From Phragmitibacter sp. (lineage in GTDB: Bacteria; Verrucomicrobiota; Verrucomicrobiia; Verrucomicrobiales; Verrucomicrobiaceae): DNA of 35,366 nucleotides. The stretch covers positions 1-35,366 of the forward strand of contig JANYJH010000074.1 of assembly GCA_025361865.1 (NCBI GenBank). Reading direction: 5' to 3'. Numbering within the stretch: position 1 is the stretch's first letter; every line of letters begins with the position of its first letter. Both the position numbers and the translations under genes were made by a program. Shown here in pieces: positions 995 to 16,252 of the stretch. The notes beneath the pieces were generated by a model, which searched no databases, was not told the origin of the DNA, and worked only from the letters and a program-made list of their open reading frames with translations.

Positions 995-3900
995 ATGTCC
1001 CGTCTGAAAGACATTCTCACCGCCACTGATCCGCGACTGAGAAACACGCCTCTGGAGCTTGCCGTAAGCGGGCTGGCACTGCCTGAATTGCTCGCTGAAT
1101 GTGAAGCCTTGGACGCTTTCTGGCGGACTGCTGAGAACCTCTATGAGCGGGTCAGAGCGCTCTTCCTGCTTTATGCGATTCATCGTTTTCATTTACCGCC
1201 CTTGCTGGAGAATGAGGCTGCCGGAGGCGATCTCAACGCCACAGGTAGGATCGGGTTCGTAGGGTATTCGCATCTGCTGGAGCGTCGTTTCGTGGAAGCC
1301 ATTCGCGTCTTCTTAGCCGAAGCGCAGGAGCATGGCCGGACAGATGCCTTGTGCTCTGCTTTGGCCCGTAGCTATCACCAACTCGCCCTGCAACAACTCG
1401 CGGATCAGGTGCATCTCAGCGTCCGCGCGGTCAGAGGAAATCAATGGATGTTCCGCACCGGAGCGGCGGATGAGCACCCACTGCGGGTGCGTCCAGAGCT
1501 GCGTCAGATGAGCGCGGGCCTCTATCCTGTGCTCCATGAGCGCACCGCCGTTCGCATGGATTTAAGCCACTCTTCCTGGAGTGATATTTTCTTTCTGGGC
1601 ATGGATTATCCCGAAGGTGCTCGCGTGCTGAACGTGAGTATCAACCTCGCCGTGCTGGGCCGTGATGACGTGCCGCAGCCGCCCGTGGAAGTGCTATTGC
1701 GTGTTATTGATCAACCCGTGCTGCGTCTCACTAGCGTTGATCTCGGAGCCTCCGCAGAAATCCATCATCTCGAAGAAGTCTTCGATTTTGCGCGTGATCA
1801 TCTCGGCCTGCTCAAAGCGGGCCTCATCGCGGCGGGCATCGTGCCCATCGGCCTTGAGGGATCGGGCGAGCCCTTGACTGGAGTGTTGGAACGCTTGCTC
1901 GGTCCCGGCCTTGGTTTGGAACTCGTGACCAGCGTGAATGGCATTCCCAAAGGTAGCCGGTTGGCGGTATCCACCAACCTTCTGGGCTCGCTGATTTCTG
2001 TTTGCATGAGAGCCACGGGCCAGACGAAAGCGCTCACCGGCCCGCTGGCAGAAGAGGATCGCCGCATGGTCGCGGCCCGCGCCATTCTCGGTGAATGGAT
2101 GGGCGGCAGCGGTGGCGGCTGGCAGGACTCCGGCGGGGTTTGGCCGGGCATCAAGATCATCGAAGGATGCCCCGCATCTGAAGGCGATCCCGAGCATGGC
2201 GTCTCCCGTGGTCGCCTGTTGCCGCAACACACGGTGCAGGACCATGAAGTGATCTCCGTGGAGAATCGGCGTCGTTTGGAAGACTCGCTCGTCCTTGTCC
2301 ATGGCGGCTTGGCGCAAAACGTCGGCCCGATTCTGGAGATGGTTACGGAGAAGTATTTACTGCGCTCCGGCCCTGAATGGGAGGCGCGACAAGAATCACT
2401 CAGGATGTTCGAGCTAATCCTCGTGGCCTTGCGCGGCGGGGATGTGAAGGCGCTGGGCTCACTCACGACGCGGCACTTTGAAGGCCCATTACAAACGATC
2501 ATTCCGTGGGCTACCAATGCCTTCACGGAGAAGTTGATCACCCTCATGCGCGCCGAGTTTGGCCAGGACTTCTGGGGCTTCTGGATGCTCGGTGGCATGT
2601 CCGGCGGCGGCATGGGCTTCATCTTCGCGCCTGAGCGGAAACAGGAAGCCTCGCGTCGTTTACTGGAGGTCATGCTTCAGCAAAAGCAGGTGCTGCAAAA
2701 CAGCCTGCCCTTCGCGATGGACCCCGTGGTCTATAACTTTGCCATCAATGAAGCAGGCTCTTCCGCCGTGCTGAAGCAGGGTGAGGACGCCTTGTTGGTG
2801 CCGCCGTATTACGCGCTCGTTTTGCCCAGCTTATTGAGAGCTGATCCGCGCTCTTTGGGTGATCTCCGACGCCGTGAAATCGAGCTTTATGGCAAGCGCA
2901 CTCACGAAGAGCAGGCATTCCAACAAAGCGTGCGTCGCGTGCTGGACAACCTGCTGCCGCATCGCTCGGGAAGTCAGAAGACCAGCGGCGAAGAATTGCA
3001 CAGCCTGCTCCAGCGCAATGGCTTTGATTCCAAGGCTCACGAGCATTTGCGAACGGAGCTGCAAGCAGGTCGGATCGGCTTGGCTCGCAATCAATTGCCC
3101 GTCTCTGTGCGGGTGGAAAATGTGCGGCCCGGCGATGTCACCGATGCGGCCACGGACCTCACGGAGCAAGATCGTCTCTGCGGCGATGCAGCCCTGCGGG
3201 CGGGAGAAGTGGGCGTCATCACGCTCGCAGCCGGCGCGGCCAGTCGTTGGACAGCAGGCGCAGGCGTGGTGAAAGCACTGCATCCCTTCTGCCAGTTCTC
3301 GGGGCGTCATCGCACTTTCCTTGAGACTCATTTGGCCAAGACGCGACGCACCGCGCATCAGTTCGGGCAGGCACCGTTGCACATCATCACGACGAGCTAC
3401 CTGACCTATGGCCCCATCTCAGGCAACCTCGAACGCGATGGGTATTACGGCTTGCGTGACTCCGTGGCGCTGAGCGAAGGACGCAGCATCGGTCTGCGCT
3501 TCATTCCGATGGAGCGCGACCTGCGTTTCCAGTGGGAAGAGACCGCGCAGCAAATGCTCGATGAACGGCAGGATCGGATGCGTGGCAGCGTTCGCCAAGC
3601 CCTGATAAAATGGGCCAAGAGCGCTGGCGAAGGCAGTGACTACACGGATAACATGCCGCTCCAGTGCGTGCATCCCGTGGGGCATTGGTATGAAGTGCCG
3701 AACCTCCTGCTCAATGGCACCCTGGCGCGTCTGATCAAACAGCGTCCGCAACTGAAGACCTTACTGCTACACAACGTGGATACGCTGGGCGCGAACCTTG
3801 ATCCGGCGCTGCTCGGCTGGCATCGGCGTAGCGAAGCTGGCTTGAGCTTCGAGGTAATTCCAAGACGCCTTGAAGATCGCGGCGGCGGCTTGGCGCGTGT

Positions 3901-4333
3901 GAACGATCAGCTTCGACTCGTCGAAGGTCTGGCCTTGGCTCATGAGGAGGACGAATTCCGACTGAGTTACTACAACACGCTGACGTGCTGGATTGATTTG
4001 GATAAACTCCTGACGGTGTTTGGGCTAAGCCGTTCCGACTTGGCGGATGATGCCCGCGTGGCCGTGGCCGTGCGTGAGTTTTCCCAACGGCTTCCTTCTT
4101 ACATCACCATGAAGGACGTGAAAAAACGCTGGGGGCATGGCCAGGAAGATGTCTTCCCCGTGGCTCAGTTCGAGAAGATCTGGGGGGACATGTCATCCCT
4201 GCCAGAGATCAAAAGCGAGTTCGCAGTGGTGCCAAGACTGCGTGGCCAGCAGTTGAAAGACCCAGCGCAGCTCGATGGCTGGTTGCGTGACGGTAGTCGC
4301 GACTATGTGGATTCGCTATGTCGCTGGGATTGA
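995..4333 (+). CDS. Fusion of fucokinase-type GHMP sugar kinase and UDPGP-family sugar-1-phosphate pyrophosphorylase
   Basis: This 1112-residue protein has two catalytic-looking halves. Residues about 185-550 carry GHMP-kinase motifs in the style of L-fucokinase: [11 protein letters not shown] (187-197), a phosphate-loop region [11 protein letters not shown] (318-328), [13 protein letters not shown] (373-385) and [12 protein letters not shown] (533-544). Residues about 738-1000 resemble UDPGP-type pyrophosphorylases: [12 protein letters not shown], then a lysine (GVVKALHP), [16 protein letters not shown], and [11 protein letters not shown] (927-937). Residues 1-180 are helical and unassigned. 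Such a protein would phosphorylate a free sugar at C1 and then activate it to a nucleotide sugar. In Bacteroides FKP the pyrophosphorylase is N-terminal and the kinase C-terminal; here the order is reversed and the pyrophosphorylase family differs. The usual GSGLGTSS loop is altered. It lies directly downstream of the GalU-like gene. Substrate is not predictable. Confidence 0.75.
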
Positions 4334-9284: not shown

Positions 9285-9433
9285 TCCTTGCCGCGAAGAA
9301 GGGGGGCTTGAAGAAGCATTTTCGGGCTGATGCCTAGACATTTTAAAAAAAGTTGAGGTCGGGAATCGAGATGTAAGTGCAATGATATGAGCGGAATACG
9401 ACAAAAGTCACCCAGCGCAATAACGCTTAATGG

Positions 9434-9459
9434 TATTAATAATATTGAAATTATTAATA
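9434..9459. promoter_or_regulatory. AT-rich dyad (possible operator) ahead of the PEP-CTERM gene
   Basis: A perfect 10-base inverted repeat, TATTAATAAT (9434-9443) and ATTATTAATA (9450-9459) with a 6-base spacer, lies in a markedly AT-rich stretch (about 9417-9490) between the divergent ThuA and PEP-CTERM genes. The symmetry and position suggest a regulator-binding site or a promoter-proximal element. A TATAAC hexamer at 9474-9479 could be a -10 box, but no convincing -35 box accompanies it. Some dyad symmetry is expected by chance in AT-rich DNA. Confidence 0.3.
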
Positions 9460-9518
9460 ATAATGTTAATTTTTATAACTTAATGTTTTTAGGAGATGTA
9501 GAACAATCAACCTTAACA

Positions 9519-10259
9519 ATGAAATCCATGACCTCAAAACTCAGCCTTCTCCTTACAGGAGTTCTCCTGACGCTCCCTTTTGAAGCGCAAGCGCAGAATT
9601 TGCTGACTAACGGCAGCTTTGAACAATACAGTGGGGGCGCGACGGATGCCCGTTTCCCAGACACTCTTCAGGGCATTACCAGTCAGAACGGCTGGACTCT
9701 GAATGATTCCAACCACGCCCTCTTCCAGAGCGCGAGTTCCTTTGCAGATGCTGCCCAGCATTACTACCAAGGCACAAACGGAAGCTACTTCACCGAATTC
9801 GCCGGTGCAGGCGCCGACGGACGGGAGTGGGCGGAGCAGACGGTCTCAATCATCGGCGGGCAGACCTATCGGCTCTCCTTTGACCATGCCTCTGGCGGCA
9901 TCTGGTGGCAGTCTGCCGGAATCTGGGTCTCCACGGGCGGCACCGCCTTTGATGTGGATCTGAGTGGAGCCTTTTCCTACTCACACACCTACACGCACCC
10001 GACTTCCGCCTTTGACGGCACCACGCCACCTGCTGGGCTGAATCCGACATCATGGGTCAGCGATAGCTATGACTTCACTCCCGGCAGCAGTGGGAATCTC
10101 ACGGTGCGCTTTACTGCCCTGAACGGTGGGACGAACTGGATTGATAATACCAGTCTGACCACTGTGACTGCTGCCCCAGAGCCGACCGGAGCTGTCCTCC
10201 TCGGCGCTGCCGGATTGCTGGCCATCGTGCGTCGCCGTCGCCTTCGTTGCGCCAGTTAG
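9519..10259 (+). CDS. PEP-CTERM-anchored secreted protein, carbohydrate-binding-like
   Basis: This 246-residue protein has a signal peptide (MKSMTSKLSLLLTGVLLTLP, cleavage near AQA-Q). A jelly-roll-like region begins NLLTNGSFEQYSGG and includes TQ-free Trp/Gly-rich strands such as SGGIWWQSAGIWVS. It ends with APEPTGAVLLGAAGLLAIVRRRR, a textbook PEP-CTERM signal of PEP motif, hydrophobic helix and basic tail. Exosortase-type enzymes process such proteins at the cell surface. The NLLTNGSFE opening is shared by many secreted DUF642 or galactose-binding-like proteins, so glycan binding is a guess. In-frame codons continue upstream to 9387, but only the ATG at 9519 (or 9528) places a signal peptide at the N terminus. 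An AGGAG at 9491 is too far upstream to serve this start. It is divergent from the ThuA gene. Confidence 0.85.
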   Translation: MKSMTSKLSLLLTGVLLTLPFEAQAQNLLTNGSFEQYSGGATDARFPDTLQGITSQNGWTLNDSNHALFQSASSFADAAQHYYQGTNGSYFTEFAGAGADGREWAEQTVSIIGGQTYRLSFDHASGGIWWQSAGIWVSTGGTAFDVDLSGAFSYSHTYTHPTSAFDGTTPPAGLNPTSWVSDSYDFTPGSSGNLTVRFTALNGGTNWIDNTSLTTVTAAPEPTGAVLLGAAGLLAIVRRRRLRCAS

Positions 10260-10415: not shown

Positions 10416-11165
10416 ATGACAGTCGCCACTTCAAAGCCCCCCAAGACTCGGAGGTCCAGAGTTTTCCGCTGGATTAAGATATTGCTGTCCGCAGCATTGA
10501 TGCTGGCCTTGCTCCTAGTCGTTTTCCATCGCCCTCTGCTGCGATGGGCGCTGGATGATGGCGCTCGTTATTTCGCGAAAAAGGCCGGCTACCAGCTCGA
10601 TTGGACGGTGGCGGGCAGTATTCTGGATGAGCTTTCGCTAAACAACATTCAAGTCAGCGGTCCTGAGAAGAGTCCGGTTCAAAAGATTAGCTGGAAGAAG
10701 TTCGAGGCAGATTACAGCCTGTGGGAGCTTCTCCGAAAAGGCCCCGGCGAGTTCTTGCACAGTCTGACGTTGGCGGATGCGGACATTGTCATAGATGGCC
10801 GAACCCCACCGGATCAAAAGCCTGCTGAAGCCAGCAAAGGAGGTGCGCCACCGGCGTTCTGGATTGGGCACCTCGATCTGCGCAACATCAATGCCCGCAT
10901 TATCACCGATCAAGGCGACATCATTCTGCGCGGCTTCACGCTGATCCTTGATGAGCAAAAGCCCGGTGAGCTGGCCATTGAAGAACTCATCGTTCCCTCT
11001 GCTAATCTCCATCTCACTCAGGTTCACGGGAAGACCGAGGTGAGGGATCGCCGGATCACGATCACAGATTTGAACGTCATGGAAGGCGTTACATTGAGCA
11101 GTCTGATGGTGGGGCTGAAAGACCTGCATAGCGGCTTTGTTCCTTTCGGCACCGAGCTGCGTTAG
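10416..11165 (+). CDS. TamB-like protein, N-terminal fragment ended by an in-frame TAG
   Basis: This 249-residue product has a short basic N terminus, one membrane anchor (about residues 19-37, IKILLSAALMLALLLVVFH) and the start of a beta-rich AsmA/TamB-type repeat (SILDELSLNNIQVSG, LDLRNINARIITDQGD). It stops at TAG (11163-11165), yet the same frame continues open from 11166 to 14201 with the same repeat style, giving 1261 codons overall, very close to the usual TamB size of about 1260. TamB spans the periplasm from inner-membrane anchor to TamA-type Omp85 partner and is linked to envelope lipid or protein transport. Either the gene carries a nonsense mutation or sequencing error, or it is now split in two. 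I see no sign of a designed domain boundary at the stop. Confidence 0.7.
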   Translation: MTVATSKPPKTRRSRVFRWIKILLSAALMLALLLVVFHRPLLRWALDDGARYFAKKAGYQLDWTVAGSILDELSLNNIQVSGPEKSPVQKISWKKFEADYSLWELLRKGPGEFLHSLTLADADIVIDGRTPPDQKPAEASKGGAPPAFWIGHLDLRNINARIITDQGDIILRGFTLILDEQKPGELAIEELIVPSANLHLTQVHGKTEVRDRRITITDLNVMEGVTLSSLMVGLKDLHSGFVPFGTELR

Positions 11166-11177
11166 GGCAAAGCAACG

Positions 11178-14100
11178 GTGGAGTCATCCGGCAGTGTCAG
11201 TGAACTGTGGACTGCGCCGTCGCTGGATGCCGCGTTGAAATTGACCGCGCTGACGCCTGCTGCAATCGCCCAATGGGTAAAACTTCCTGAAGGCTTCTCA
11301 TGGCGTGTGGATGAACTGAAGCTGCAACTTAAAGGGCCTCCGACGCAGCCGCAAAAGCTGAACGCTGATGTCACACTCGTTGCTTCAAACATTCAGGTTT
11401 CAGGCGTGCAAGCAGACAGCGTGAACGCTCATGCCATCATTGAACAAGGAGCGCTGCGTCTGGAAGCGCTGACGCTTCACTCAGGCCCGAACAGCGTCGA
11501 AACCTCAGCATCAGCCGCGTTGCCCGCGACCTGGGATCAAATGGCCGCGCTCACCGCGGAGGCGCAGTGGAAGATCACAGCGCCGAGCATCGAAAGCCTC
11601 TTCATCAAACCCGCTGACTTCGCAGGAAACCTGCAAGGGCAGGGGACCGTGGCAATCAAAGCGGGCCGACTCAACGGCGCAGAAGGCAAGCTAAATGGCA
11701 CGAATCTTACGGTGGTGAAAAAGACGATCAAGTCACTGGATGTCGAGGTCACTACGGATGCGCAGATCGTGCGACTGAAGAGCGCCGTGGCTCATCTGGA
11801 CGAGCATAACAGCGCGAATGTTTCCGGTGAGATGAACCTCACGGGACGCCAATCCGTCCGCCTTTCCTGGCAGGGGGACATCACGGATCTGGCTACGTTT
11901 GCGCAGTGGGCCGGAGTGAAGGAAGAACCCTTGCCGGAGGCTGGAAAGTTTACCACCACAGGGATGGCCGCCTTCGATCTTCTGGATGTGCAGGCTCAGG
12001 ATTACATGAAGGTTTCCGCAAAGGGCAGCGCTCGCTTGAATGGCGTGATCTGGCAGAAGGCTGAGATGGAATCCGTCGCGCTGGACTTCGATTGTCGTGA
12101 TGGCCGTGCTGAGGTGAAGCCGTTGGAGGTTCGGCTCAACGAGCAAAACAAGCTCATCATCAAAGGTCACGCCATGCTCGATAAGACGGGTGATTTCGCC
12201 GGGAGCATTGAAGGCACCTTCCCGCAGCTTACGGACTTTTCCGGTTGGCTGGAACTGGCCAAAGCACCACGACTCACCAGCGGAAGCGCCGCATTGTCAT
12301 GGAGTGGCCAAGGGAAAATCTCCACACGCGAGGTCACCGGCGCAGGTTCTGTGAAAGTATCCGATGTCAAGCTGGAGGGCAACGCGGATGCCTTGTCACT
12401 GGCTCTGGAAACGCAGCATGAAGGTCACAAAGCAGAGATCAAAAAGCTCGAAGCCAGTGTTGGAAAATTCCACGCGAACGCCACGCTGGCCATCTCTGAT
12501 ACGGACTTGAGCATCCCGCGCGTCTCCATGTTCTCAGATGAACTGCTTCTCTTCGATGGGGCTGTGCAAGTGCCGCTGGTCCTAGCGCAGGAGCCGCGCC
12601 CAGCGATTCCCATTGATCCGAAACGGCCTCTTCAAGTCAGCCTGCACATGGTGGATATGGACATCACGAAGCTGGCCGCGGCGTTGGGTCAAAAGCCCGC
12701 TGCGAGTGGCATCGCGAGTTTAGAACTGGACCTTCATGGTCTGCTGTCAGACCTTGATGGAAAGCTCTCGTTGGCGCTCACAGGCGTGCGTGCGGGAGTG
12801 ATGGAGAACAAGCTGGAGCCCGCATCCTTGAAGCTGGAAGCCGTTCTTGATCAGCATCAGCTCAAGGTAGAGGCCACCGCGCATCAGGCCCCGTTGCAGC
12901 CTTTGAATGCGAAGGCGGAACTGCCCCTCGATTTGGAGAAGCTCATCGCGGAGCCTCATTCCGTCATGGATGCGCCGATCACGGCCAGCGTGGTGCTCCC
13001 TGATTCGGACCTTTCCACGGTTCCTCAATTCGTCCCGGTGCTCGCATCGGTAAAGGGCATGATCGGGCTTAATGTAACGCTGGGCGGTTCAATACGAGTC
13101 CCGAAGATGGAAGGGCTGATCCACGTTGATGTGCCCAGCGCTGATTTGAACAAAGGCCAAATGACGATCCGCGATATGAAAGCCCGCGTGGCCTTCGCTG
13201 ATCAGCGCATCACCCTGCAAGACATCTCTGCCACGCTGGCCGGCGGCAAGGTGAGCGCGGGAGGAACCGTGAATCTGGCTCCGCTGAACAACCCCGCTTT
13301 AGATGTTCACCTGGTGGCGAAGGAAGCACTCGTGATGCGCGATGAAACGATGAGTCTGCGCGCCGATGCCGATGTTTCCTGCAAAGGCACACTGAGCAAA
13401 GCAGATGTCTCTGGGCGCATTGATCTGGTGCGTGGTCGGGTCTTTAAGGAGATTGAGTTCCTGCCCTTATCGCTGCCGAATCAACTGCCGCCCGCACCAC
13501 CAGTCATCCGTCGGGGCAGCGCTTCGGCGGGACTGCCAGCGCCCTTTGATCAATGGAATTATAATCTCGACATCACCAGCCGTGATCCCATTCGCTTACT
13601 GGGCAATATCCTGAATGGGGGCGTGGCGGTTGATTTGCATCTTCGCGGCACAGGGCCGGGTATCCCCTTGGAAGGCAAGGTTTCGTTGGCGGGTGCGAAG
13701 CTGCGGATGCCCTTCACCACCATGAAGATCATCAAGGGAGACATCCTCTTCACGAAGGACAAGCCGCTCGATCCCGAGATAGATTTGCAAGGGGATTCAC
13801 TTATCAATAATTACCAAGTCAGTGTTTACGCTTATGGATCAGCCTTGGCACCGAAGACCCGCTTCACCTCCAGTCCGCCCATGTCAGAGCAGGAAATAGC
13901 CACCCTCTTGGCGACAGGAACCACGAAGGGGGACAAGGATAGCGCGTTGGGCGTGGCCGCCAACCGGGCTGCGTTCCTGCTCATCAGCAGGCTCTATCGC
14001 GAACTCTTCAACAAAGGCGCGCCGAAGCGATTCGATGAGGAGCCGCCGAAGTTGACCTTCAGCTTTTCACCGCTCTCCACAGGCTCATCTCAGCGCGGAG

Positions 14101-14201
14101 TCACCGCCACTTATGAGCTTTCGCCCAAACTACAAGCCATCGGCTCAGTCACGGATCGGGGCTTCCGAGGCTTGTTCTACTACATCGTTCGATTCCGATG
14201 A
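11178..14201 (+). CDS. TamB-like translocation/assembly protein, C-terminal part (DUF490)
   Basis: This 1007-codon stretch is in the same frame as the upstream fragment (11178 minus 10416 is 762, divisible by three). It is a long array of amphipathic beta-strand repeats typical of TamB/AsmA-like bridges, and its last 300 residues match the TamB (DUF490) domain: GRVFKEIEF, a LDITSRDPIRLLGNILNGGVAVDL segment, GTGPGIPLEGKVSL, RMPFTTMKIIKGDILF, PMSEQEIATLLATGT and the C-terminal YELSPKLQAIGSV followed by RGFRGLFYYIVRFR. Alone it lacks a signal or anchor. A GTG at 11178 with AGGG at 11164-11167 could allow reinitiation 12 bases after the TAG. Its TGA overlaps the TamA-like ATG by four bases (14198-14201), the usual tamA-tamB partnership in reversed gene order. 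Confidence 0.82.
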   Translation: MESSGSVSELWTAPSLDAALKLTALTPAAIAQWVKLPEGFSWRVDELKLQLKGPPTQPQKLNADVTLVASNIQVSGVQADSVNAHAIIEQGALRLEALTLHSGPNSVETSASAALPATWDQMAALTAEAQWKITAPSIESLFIKPADFAGNLQGQGTVAIKAGRLNGAEGKLNGTNLTVVKKTIKSLDVEVTTDAQIVRLKSAVAHLDEHNSANVSGEMNLTGRQSVRLSWQGDITDLATFAQWAGVKEEPLPEAGKFTTTGMAAFDLLDVQAQDYMKVSAKGSARLNGVIWQKAEMESVALDFDCRDGRAEVKPLEVRLNEQNKLIIKGHAMLDKTGDFAGSIEGTFPQLTDFSGWLELAKAPRLTSGSAALSWSGQGKISTREVTGAGSVKVSDVKLEGNADALSLALETQHEGHKAEIKKLEASVGKFHANATLAISDTDLSIPRVSMFSDELLLFDGAVQVPLVLAQEPRPAIPIDPKRPLQVSLHMVDMDITKLAAALGQKPAASGIASLELDLHGLLSDLDGKLSLALTGVRAGVMENKLEPASLKLEAVLDQHQLKVEATAHQAPLQPLNAKAELPLDLEKLIAEPHSVMDAPITASVVLPDSDLSTVPQFVPVLASVKGMIGLNVTLGGSIRVPKMEGLIHVDVPSADLNKGQMTIRDMKARVAFADQRITLQDISATLAGGKVSAGGTVNLAPLNNPALDVHLVAKEALVMRDETMSLRADADVSCKGTLSKADVSGRIDLVRGRVFKEIEFLPLSLPNQLPPAPPVIRRGSASAGLPAPFDQWNYNLDITSRDPIRLLGNILNGGVAVDLHLRGTGPGIPLEGKVSLAGAKLRMPFTTMKIIKGDILFTKDKPLDPEIDLQGDSLINNYQVSVYAYGSALAPKTRFTSSPPMSEQEIATLLATGTTKGDKDSALGVAANRAAFLLISRLYRELFNKGAPKRFDEEPPKLTFSFSPLSTGSSQRGVTATYELSPKLQAIGSVTDRGFRGLFYYIVRFR

Positions 14202-16252
14202 AGCCGCTCACACTCTTGATCATAGCCTTGTTGGGCATTGGCTTGTGCGCGGCTTCGGACGTGCCCGATTCCGATGAAATGACCGTGAGCGCTAACGGAT
14301 TGGACGTATCGGTTAAAGGAGTGGGTAAGACCTCGCGTGATGACGTGAAGAATGTCATCGAGTTGCAGGTAGCCTTGAGTCAAGACGCCGCGGCGACCGC
14401 GCCCCTGGCTGATGATTTGGCCTTCTTTCTCCGTCAGCGCTATCAGGAACTCGGCTATCCACAGGCCGTAGTCACTTGGGAACTGATCAATGGGCAAGTC
14501 TCCCTGAGTGTGGAGGAGGGGATTCATTACCTTGTGGGGGCCATCCGCTTTGCAGGAAACAGCGTCGCGAAGGATGAAGACCTCAAGCAGCTACTCCTGC
14601 GGCCAACCCATGAGAAGCTGGGAACGAAGGGCGATAAGGTGGCCTTCGTGGAGACGGACATCAAGAAGGGCGCGGAGTTGGTGCAACGCTACTTTCAGGC
14701 GCAAGGCTATTTGGAAGCCGTCGTCGCTGAACCGCAGTTCACGCAGCATCCAGAAAGCGAAACGGTCGATCTTTTGCTCAAGATCAAGCAGGGACAAAGC
14801 TATCTCTTCGGCGAGGTGAATGTCACGGGCGATCTCCAAGACCAGACGCGGACAGTGAATGAGCAGATCAGCGAACTGGGAGGTCAGCCGTTCAATGAAG
14901 TCAAACTTGAGAGCGTTCGCGGGGCCATCGAAAGCATCTATCAAAGGAGCGGACACTTCCACGCGGCGGTGACGCTTAATGCCAATCCTACGGCCAATGG
15001 CAGTGGAGAAGTGCCTGTGGAATTCCATGTCACACCCGGGCCGAAATTCCGCATCAGCGAAGTGAAGATCGCTCCGAATTTATCCAAAGGCGCTCAACGG
15101 GTAGCGCGCTCTAGTTTCAAGCGCGCTAAAGGTCGGTATTACTCGCCCGAAGAACTGGACATCATGCATCGTCGCGTCTTGGACACGGACATATTCTCGC
15201 GCCTTGACCTCAAGCCGATGGCGGATAGTGAAGACACGTTGTCGCTTGAATTGTCAGGCGAAGAAGGTCCTACGCGGCGTCTCTCGGTCTTCGCCGGATA
15301 TGAGACTTTCCAAGGCCCCATCTTGGGTGTGGAAGCACGTAAAATGAACTTGTGGAATACAGGCGATGCCTTGCTCGCCAAAGCTGAAGTCAGCGGCACT
15401 GGCTTCAATGGAGCGATCAGGATGGTTGATCCCGCGTTTCTGAACAGCCCCTTCAATGCGGATATTGAGCTGGCCGCGCAATCGCTCTCCGTCTTTGATT
15501 ACACAAGGCACACGATCAATCTGCGAGCTTCGGTGAATCGGCATTGGGACACGCATATCACGACGGGCATCTTCGCAGAGATCTCTGAGAACACGCTGAC
15601 TTCCCCCACGCTCACGCCGCTTGAATTAGGGCCAGCGACTTATGGATTGGCCACGGTGGGTGCGGCGTTGACCTTCGACTATCGGGACAGTTCCGTGCTC
15701 CCCACGAAGGGCTACTATGCGGGCCTCACGGTCACAGACGCCACGGACATCAATGGAGATGGTCAGGTGAATTACCTCCGAACGGACTTAGCCTTCTCGT
15801 TTTACCAACCGATCACGAAGAAGCTGCGTGCCGCTTTCAATGCCCGCGCCAGCGCGATCAACAGCAAAGGCGGCGTGGACGCACTGCCCATAGACCTCCG
15901 TCTCTTCAATGGCGGGGCCACCAGCGTGCGGAGTTTCCCCGAACGTGAAATGGGAACGAAATCCAAATCGGGAACACCCCTCGGCGGCACCCTGAGCCAA
16001 GTCTTCACGATGGAGCTTTCCTACGAGATCATCTCGAACTTGGAACTCGCCGCCTTCGTGGATGCCGGAAGCGTCAGTCCCACACGAAGCAACGTCCTCA
16101 GCTCACCGAATGGCCTGCGTTATGCCGTCGGTGCCGGCATTCGCTATAAGCTGCCGATTGGTCCGCTACGGATTGACTACGGCTACAATCCCAGCCGACG
16201 CGGGAATGAGCCGATAGGAGCGCTGCACATCGCGCTGGGCTTTGCGTTTTAG
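14198..16252 (+). CDS. Omp85-family outer-membrane protein (TamA/BamA-like)
   Basis: This 684-residue protein starts with a signal peptide (MKPLTLLIIALLGIGLCAAS). Several POTRA modules follow, visible as repeated beta-alpha-alpha-beta units such as YLVGAIRFAGNSV (about 110-123), SYLFGEVNVTGD (about 205-216) and FRISEVKIAPNLSKG (about 283). From residue 365 a beta-barrel domain begins (RRLSVFAGYETFQGP), with FDYRDSSVLPTKGYYAGL, SVRSFPEREMG, which corresponds to the conserved Omp85 RG-F region, and PIGPLRIDYGYNP. It ends in phenylalanine (LGFAF), the outer-membrane barrel signature. Translational overlap with the TamB-like gene argues for a TamA role rather than general BamA. The pair would sit across the envelope and help insert or export outer-membrane components. 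Confidence 0.9.
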   Translation: MKPLTLLIIALLGIGLCAASDVPDSDEMTVSANGLDVSVKGVGKTSRDDVKNVIELQVALSQDAAATAPLADDLAFFLRQRYQELGYPQAVVTWELINGQVSLSVEEGIHYLVGAIRFAGNSVAKDEDLKQLLLRPTHEKLGTKGDKVAFVETDIKKGAELVQRYFQAQGYLEAVVAEPQFTQHPESETVDLLLKIKQGQSYLFGEVNVTGDLQDQTRTVNEQISELGGQPFNEVKLESVRGAIESIYQRSGHFHAAVTLNANPTANGSGEVPVEFHVTPGPKFRISEVKIAPNLSKGAQRVARSSFKRAKGRYYSPEELDIMHRRVLDTDIFSRLDLKPMADSEDTLSLELSGEEGPTRRLSVFAGYETFQGPILGVEARKMNLWNTGDALLAKAEVSGTGFNGAIRMVDPAFLNSPFNADIELAAQSLSVFDYTRHTINLRASVNRHWDTHITTGIFAEISENTLTSPTLTPLELGPATYGLATVGAALTFDYRDSSVLPTKGYYAGLTVTDATDINGDGQVNYLRTDLAFSFYQPITKKLRAAFNARASAINSKGGVDALPIDLRLFNGGATSVRSFPEREMGTKSKSGTPLGGTLSQVFTMELSYEIISNLELAAFVDAGSVSPTRSNVLSSPNGLRYAVGAGIRYKLPIGPLRIDYGYNPSRRGNEPIGALHIALGFAF

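Follow-up and report, generated by a model that had tools for sequence, protein, structure and literature searches.

In this study we show that the tamB gene of a Verrucomicrobiales bacterium is interrupted by a single in-frame TAG, and the evidence taken together suggests that this is probably a recent nonsense lesion, a real mutation or polymorphism, in an otherwise ordinary gene. The window analysed here, a stretch of 35,366 nucleotides, is the entire contig C363 of a draft genome of 4.67 Mb in 455 contigs, which is 91.5% complete with 3.1% contamination. Sequence searches gave Verrucomicrobium sp., Prosthecobacter sp. and further members of the Verrucomicrobiaceae and Verrucomicrobiales as named relatives, so the host is an environmental Verrucomicrobiales bacterium.

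The initial annotation described one reading frame of 1261 codons between 10416 and 14201 that is interrupted only by TAG at 11163-11165, and both the sequence and its translation bear this out. The frame begins with ATG at 10416 and ends with TGA at 14199-14201, and the 249 and 1011 sense codons on the two sides of the stop, which is codon 250, lie in the same phase (Table 1). The probability that a random frame contains no stop over 1011 codons is roughly 1e-21, and homologs, whose alignment starts at residue 4, align across the TAG without interruption; the frame is therefore not a product of chance. PF04357 (the former DUF490) lies in the C-terminal part, at about residues 937-1183 when the two pieces are joined. 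With 90.9 bits it exceeds the cut-off of 22.4, and it is the sole PF04357 match in the genome. Residues 19-37 form the only strongly hydrophobic segment of the joined frame. These positions agree with the earlier proposal that the N-terminal piece holds the anchor and the C-terminal piece the DUF490 domain, and on sequence grounds the broken frame is an ordinary full-length tamB. TamB, which is anchored in the inner membrane, forms the periplasmic bridge in the translocation and assembly module. In the window the anchor and PF04357 share one frame but sit on opposite sides of the TAG, so that only a false stop or readthrough would place them on the same polypeptide.

The gene directly downstream of tamB matches Omp85 (145 bits) and POTRA (77 bits) models, and its ATG overlaps the tamB stop, the two genes forming an apparent operon. 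For the partner protein the BamA model scores above the TamA model, with both scores under the cut-off. A second Omp85 gene of the genome is located on contig C149, so the partner beside tamB need not be the only BamA. The locus resembles known systems in which TamB and an Omp85 protein are encoded in one operon, both in the protein itself, with its N-terminal signal-anchor, long repetitive beta-rich body and C-terminal PF04357, and in the Omp85/POTRA gene that follows directly with an overlapping start. What sets it apart is the TAG that interrupts the frame at codon 250. In G005, the closest relative, tamB is likewise followed by an overlapping Omp85 gene, and its tamB is 43-44% identical to that of the window. 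Elsewhere in the window, the frame just upstream of tamB (9387-10259) encodes a protein that is probably secreted; it matches choice-of-anchor C weakly, and its C-terminal end resembles a sorting signal (MYXO-CTERM/PEP-CTERM models). Two neighbouring frames at 83-970 and 995-4333 have nucleotidyltransferase-type matches, the former for a GalU-like protein and the latter for a protein of 1112 aa whose UDPGP domain lies close to the end.

Table 1. Features of the interrupted tamB locus; positions are those of the window.
Feature	Position	Strand	Remarks
tamB N-terminal part, 249 codons	10416..11165	+	Hydrophobic signal-anchor, residues 19-37; ends at the in-frame TAG
In-frame TAG, codon 250 of tamB	11163..11165	+	Position without a stop in every aligned relative
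tamB remainder, 1011 codons and TGA	11166..14201	+	PF04357 (TamB/DUF490) at about 13224-13964
Possible restart GTG	11178..11180	+	Four codons past the TAG; Shine-Dalgarno match unremarkable
POTRA and Omp85 barrel protein, TamA/BamA-like partner	14198..16252	+	Start codon overlaps the tamB stop

Comparison with relatives places this interruption within the family. Among 68 family genomes, that of the window included, tamB is one uninterrupted full-length frame in 37, while five others give partial matches, some of them running to or near contig ends, and two (G031 and G076) give weak fragments only. A single lesion in tamB is seen in three of the 68, the window genome, G079 and G029, at unrelated positions. 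G079 (L097:5455, minus strand) carries a single in-frame TAG, and it was considered as a relative sharing the stop; its TAG aligns with residue 44, just past the anchor, rather than with residue 250, and is an independent lesion or error. G029 (L098:2827-2840, minus strand) has one frameshift at about residue 1005-1010. Its tamB is directly preceded, on the same strand, by a 684-aa frame, whereas the 684-aa partner in the window lies downstream. A search of a separate contig collection with the C-terminal part as a single sequence returned nothing, and an alignment query recovered 21 named Verrucomicrobiales loci, partly from the same genomes, none of which has a stop within tamB. We found no literature report of an interrupted tamB in Verrucomicrobia.

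The alignment column occupied by the TAG is poorly conserved across the relatives. It holds Ser in the six nearest ones (G005; G001, G011 and G018, which belong to one genus; G002 and G012, which belong to another) and Gln, Pro, Leu, Met, Ile or Ala in more distant ones. Since Ser is shared by the nearest relatives and Gln occurs only in a more distant group, the proposed origin of the stop by a CAG-to-TAG change is possible but not favoured. The same comparison contradicts the suggestion that the window encodes a truly split TamB, in which an anchored N-terminal protein would co-operate with a separate C-terminal protein. Although both parts keep an open frame, the second with a start codon close to the stop, the full-length tamB frames of the family are continuous across this point, the lesions of G079 and G029 lie elsewhere, the second part has no signal and the TAG does not coincide with any break of its own in the identity to the closest relatives. 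Nor is there a two-gene tamB, with consistently separate parts, in any family relative examined; the frame of G016 seems to start at residue 245, but it is merely cut by a contig end. We therefore give a split TamB hardly any credence.

Whether the ribosome would stop at this codon can be judged from the rest of the genome. A 412-kb sample contains 308 gene calls, of which 136 end in TGA, 104 in TAA and 68 in TAG (about 22%); for the genes of at least 300 aa in the same sample the counts are TGA 75, TAA 50 and TAG 33. RF1 (prfA) is present with a score over the cut-off, and a CUA anticodon is carried by none of the 37 tRNAs found in the genome, which is about 91% complete. The anticodons of 36 of these tRNAs were assigned by ARAGORN, and that of the 37th, which is cut off at the end of contig C332, was read by eye as TAC (valine). 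Stop usage, RF1 and the tRNAs rule out reassignment of TAG, which is a normal stop in this genome, and make its suppression unlikely, although a suppressor tRNA might lie in the roughly 9% of the genome that is missing.

A related explanation is that the stop is real but tolerated, occasional UAG readthrough or reinitiation at GTG 11178 supplying a little functional TamB. A survey has argued that bacterial genes commonly carry in-frame stops while purifying selection on them continues, and that such stops are short-lived and possibly read through to some extent (PMC7918605). The conserved reading frame of the window tamB, its freedom from further lesions and the position of the GTG would all fit such a case. 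Against it, no relative conserves the TAG, and the tRNAs, RF1 and the wide use of TAG as a terminator give readthrough no help. The 100 bases from the TAG onward fold with z = -1.0, which is not unusual. The GTG, which is the first start codon after the TAG, and the AGGG at 11164-11167 that overlaps the stop are both present as initially annotated, but the Shine-Dalgarno energy at this codon is -3.4 kcal/mol compared with a mean of -3.7 over 76 internal in-frame start codons, so that the match is no better than at internal starts. The earlier remark that the second part has no signal peptide is confirmed by the lack of any export or anchor segment near its start; the best 19-residue hydrophobicity mean after residue 250, 1.45, lies deep inside the protein. 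Neither restart nor readthrough, the latter an option raised by the initial annotation, has positive support. A tolerated stop is accordingly improbable in our view, and it is still more doubtful that the TAG is real and regulatory or leaky, keeping TamB low and tunable through readthrough or reinitiation.

The lesion shows no sign of age. No further stop or frameshift occurs in the 1261 codons, in each part the window protein and G005 have nearly the same identity to the relatives common to both, and the terminal branches of the window protein are 0.56 for the N-terminal and 0.52 for the C-terminal part compared with 0.69 and 0.65 for G005, a test that at this distance reveals only a very long unconstrained period and hence shows no more than that the lesion is not old. 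Since there is no second lesion and neither part diverges faster, the interruption appears to be either recent or false. Of the options offered by the initial annotation, a new nonsense mutation and a mistake in the assembly both remain. A clean frame without a second lesion is equally expected of an intact gene with one wrong base.

In the latter case the organism would have a sense codon at 11163 and an intact tamB, the TAG being a consensus error. Such an error is believable because one base suffices, because the genome is a fragmented draft of 455 contigs, and because there is a precedent: in Deinococcus radiodurans, tamB was annotated as three genes, DR_1460-DR_1462, through sequencing errors, and re-sequencing showed it to be one gene, DR_146T (PMC5382914). 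The two cases are alike in that the public sequence shows a broken frame while homologs are intact, and differ in that the D. radiodurans gene had several gaps and base errors that re-sequencing proved false (PMC5382914), whereas the window gene has one stop in its assembled sequence. A scan of 412 kb of the same genome for interrupted genes flagged 34 same-frame pairs, of which the joined frames of 14 were read by eye. Among those read, tamB is the only clear interruption; the pairs with long pieces look like distinct neighbours, and several of the rest have the look of antisense shadow frames. Widespread interruption of genes was therefore rejected. No other clean within-gene stop was recognised, and consensus errors are thus not frequent in this genome as far as a scan of moderate sensitivity, which ranks tamB itself low, can tell. 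In short-read assemblies, moreover, real nonsense mutations are by our own estimate at least as common as consensus errors. Taken together, we consider a wrong base rather unlikely, though worth serious consideration.

We therefore return to a recent nonsense lesion as the probable explanation, with the weights given to all these readings resting on our judgement. A lone stop in a conserved gene, unshared by relatives, is also what characterizes the recent in-frame stops and young nonsense pseudogenes treated in two reports (PMC7918605; PMC2916853). The strain or population assembled would recently have gained one nonsense codon in tamB. Translation would then normally end after 249 residues and leave an anchored stub without most of the beta-taco and without the C-terminal domain, and any product restarted at 11178, lacking an export signal, would remain in the cytoplasm. 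Since the stub has no C-terminal domain and a restarted product would not be exported, TamB is very probably non-functional in cells carrying the TAG. We infer both the reality of the TAG base and the loss of function.

Such a loss is believable because, judging from the family comparison, several lineages appear to have lost tamB or changed it strongly. Of the 47 family genomes with a completeness of 90% or more, 14 lack a PF04357 match, which suggests that TamB is dispensable over time in the family, and 12 give no match in a search with the tamB protein. Among all 68 genomes, tamB is undetected in about a third, the near-complete G009, G030, G034 and G078 included. The TAM bridge thus seems to have been repeatedly lost or replaced in these Verrucomicrobiales.

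In summary, the interrupted tamB of this bacterium is an ordinary finding that matters little and indicates no new biology. Readthrough of a genuine stop would mean controlled synthesis of an envelope protein, and nothing points that way. The case is rather a reminder that a single stop in a draft genome of an environmental bacterium usually reflects a recent lesion or one wrong base, and that members of this family can lose tamB.
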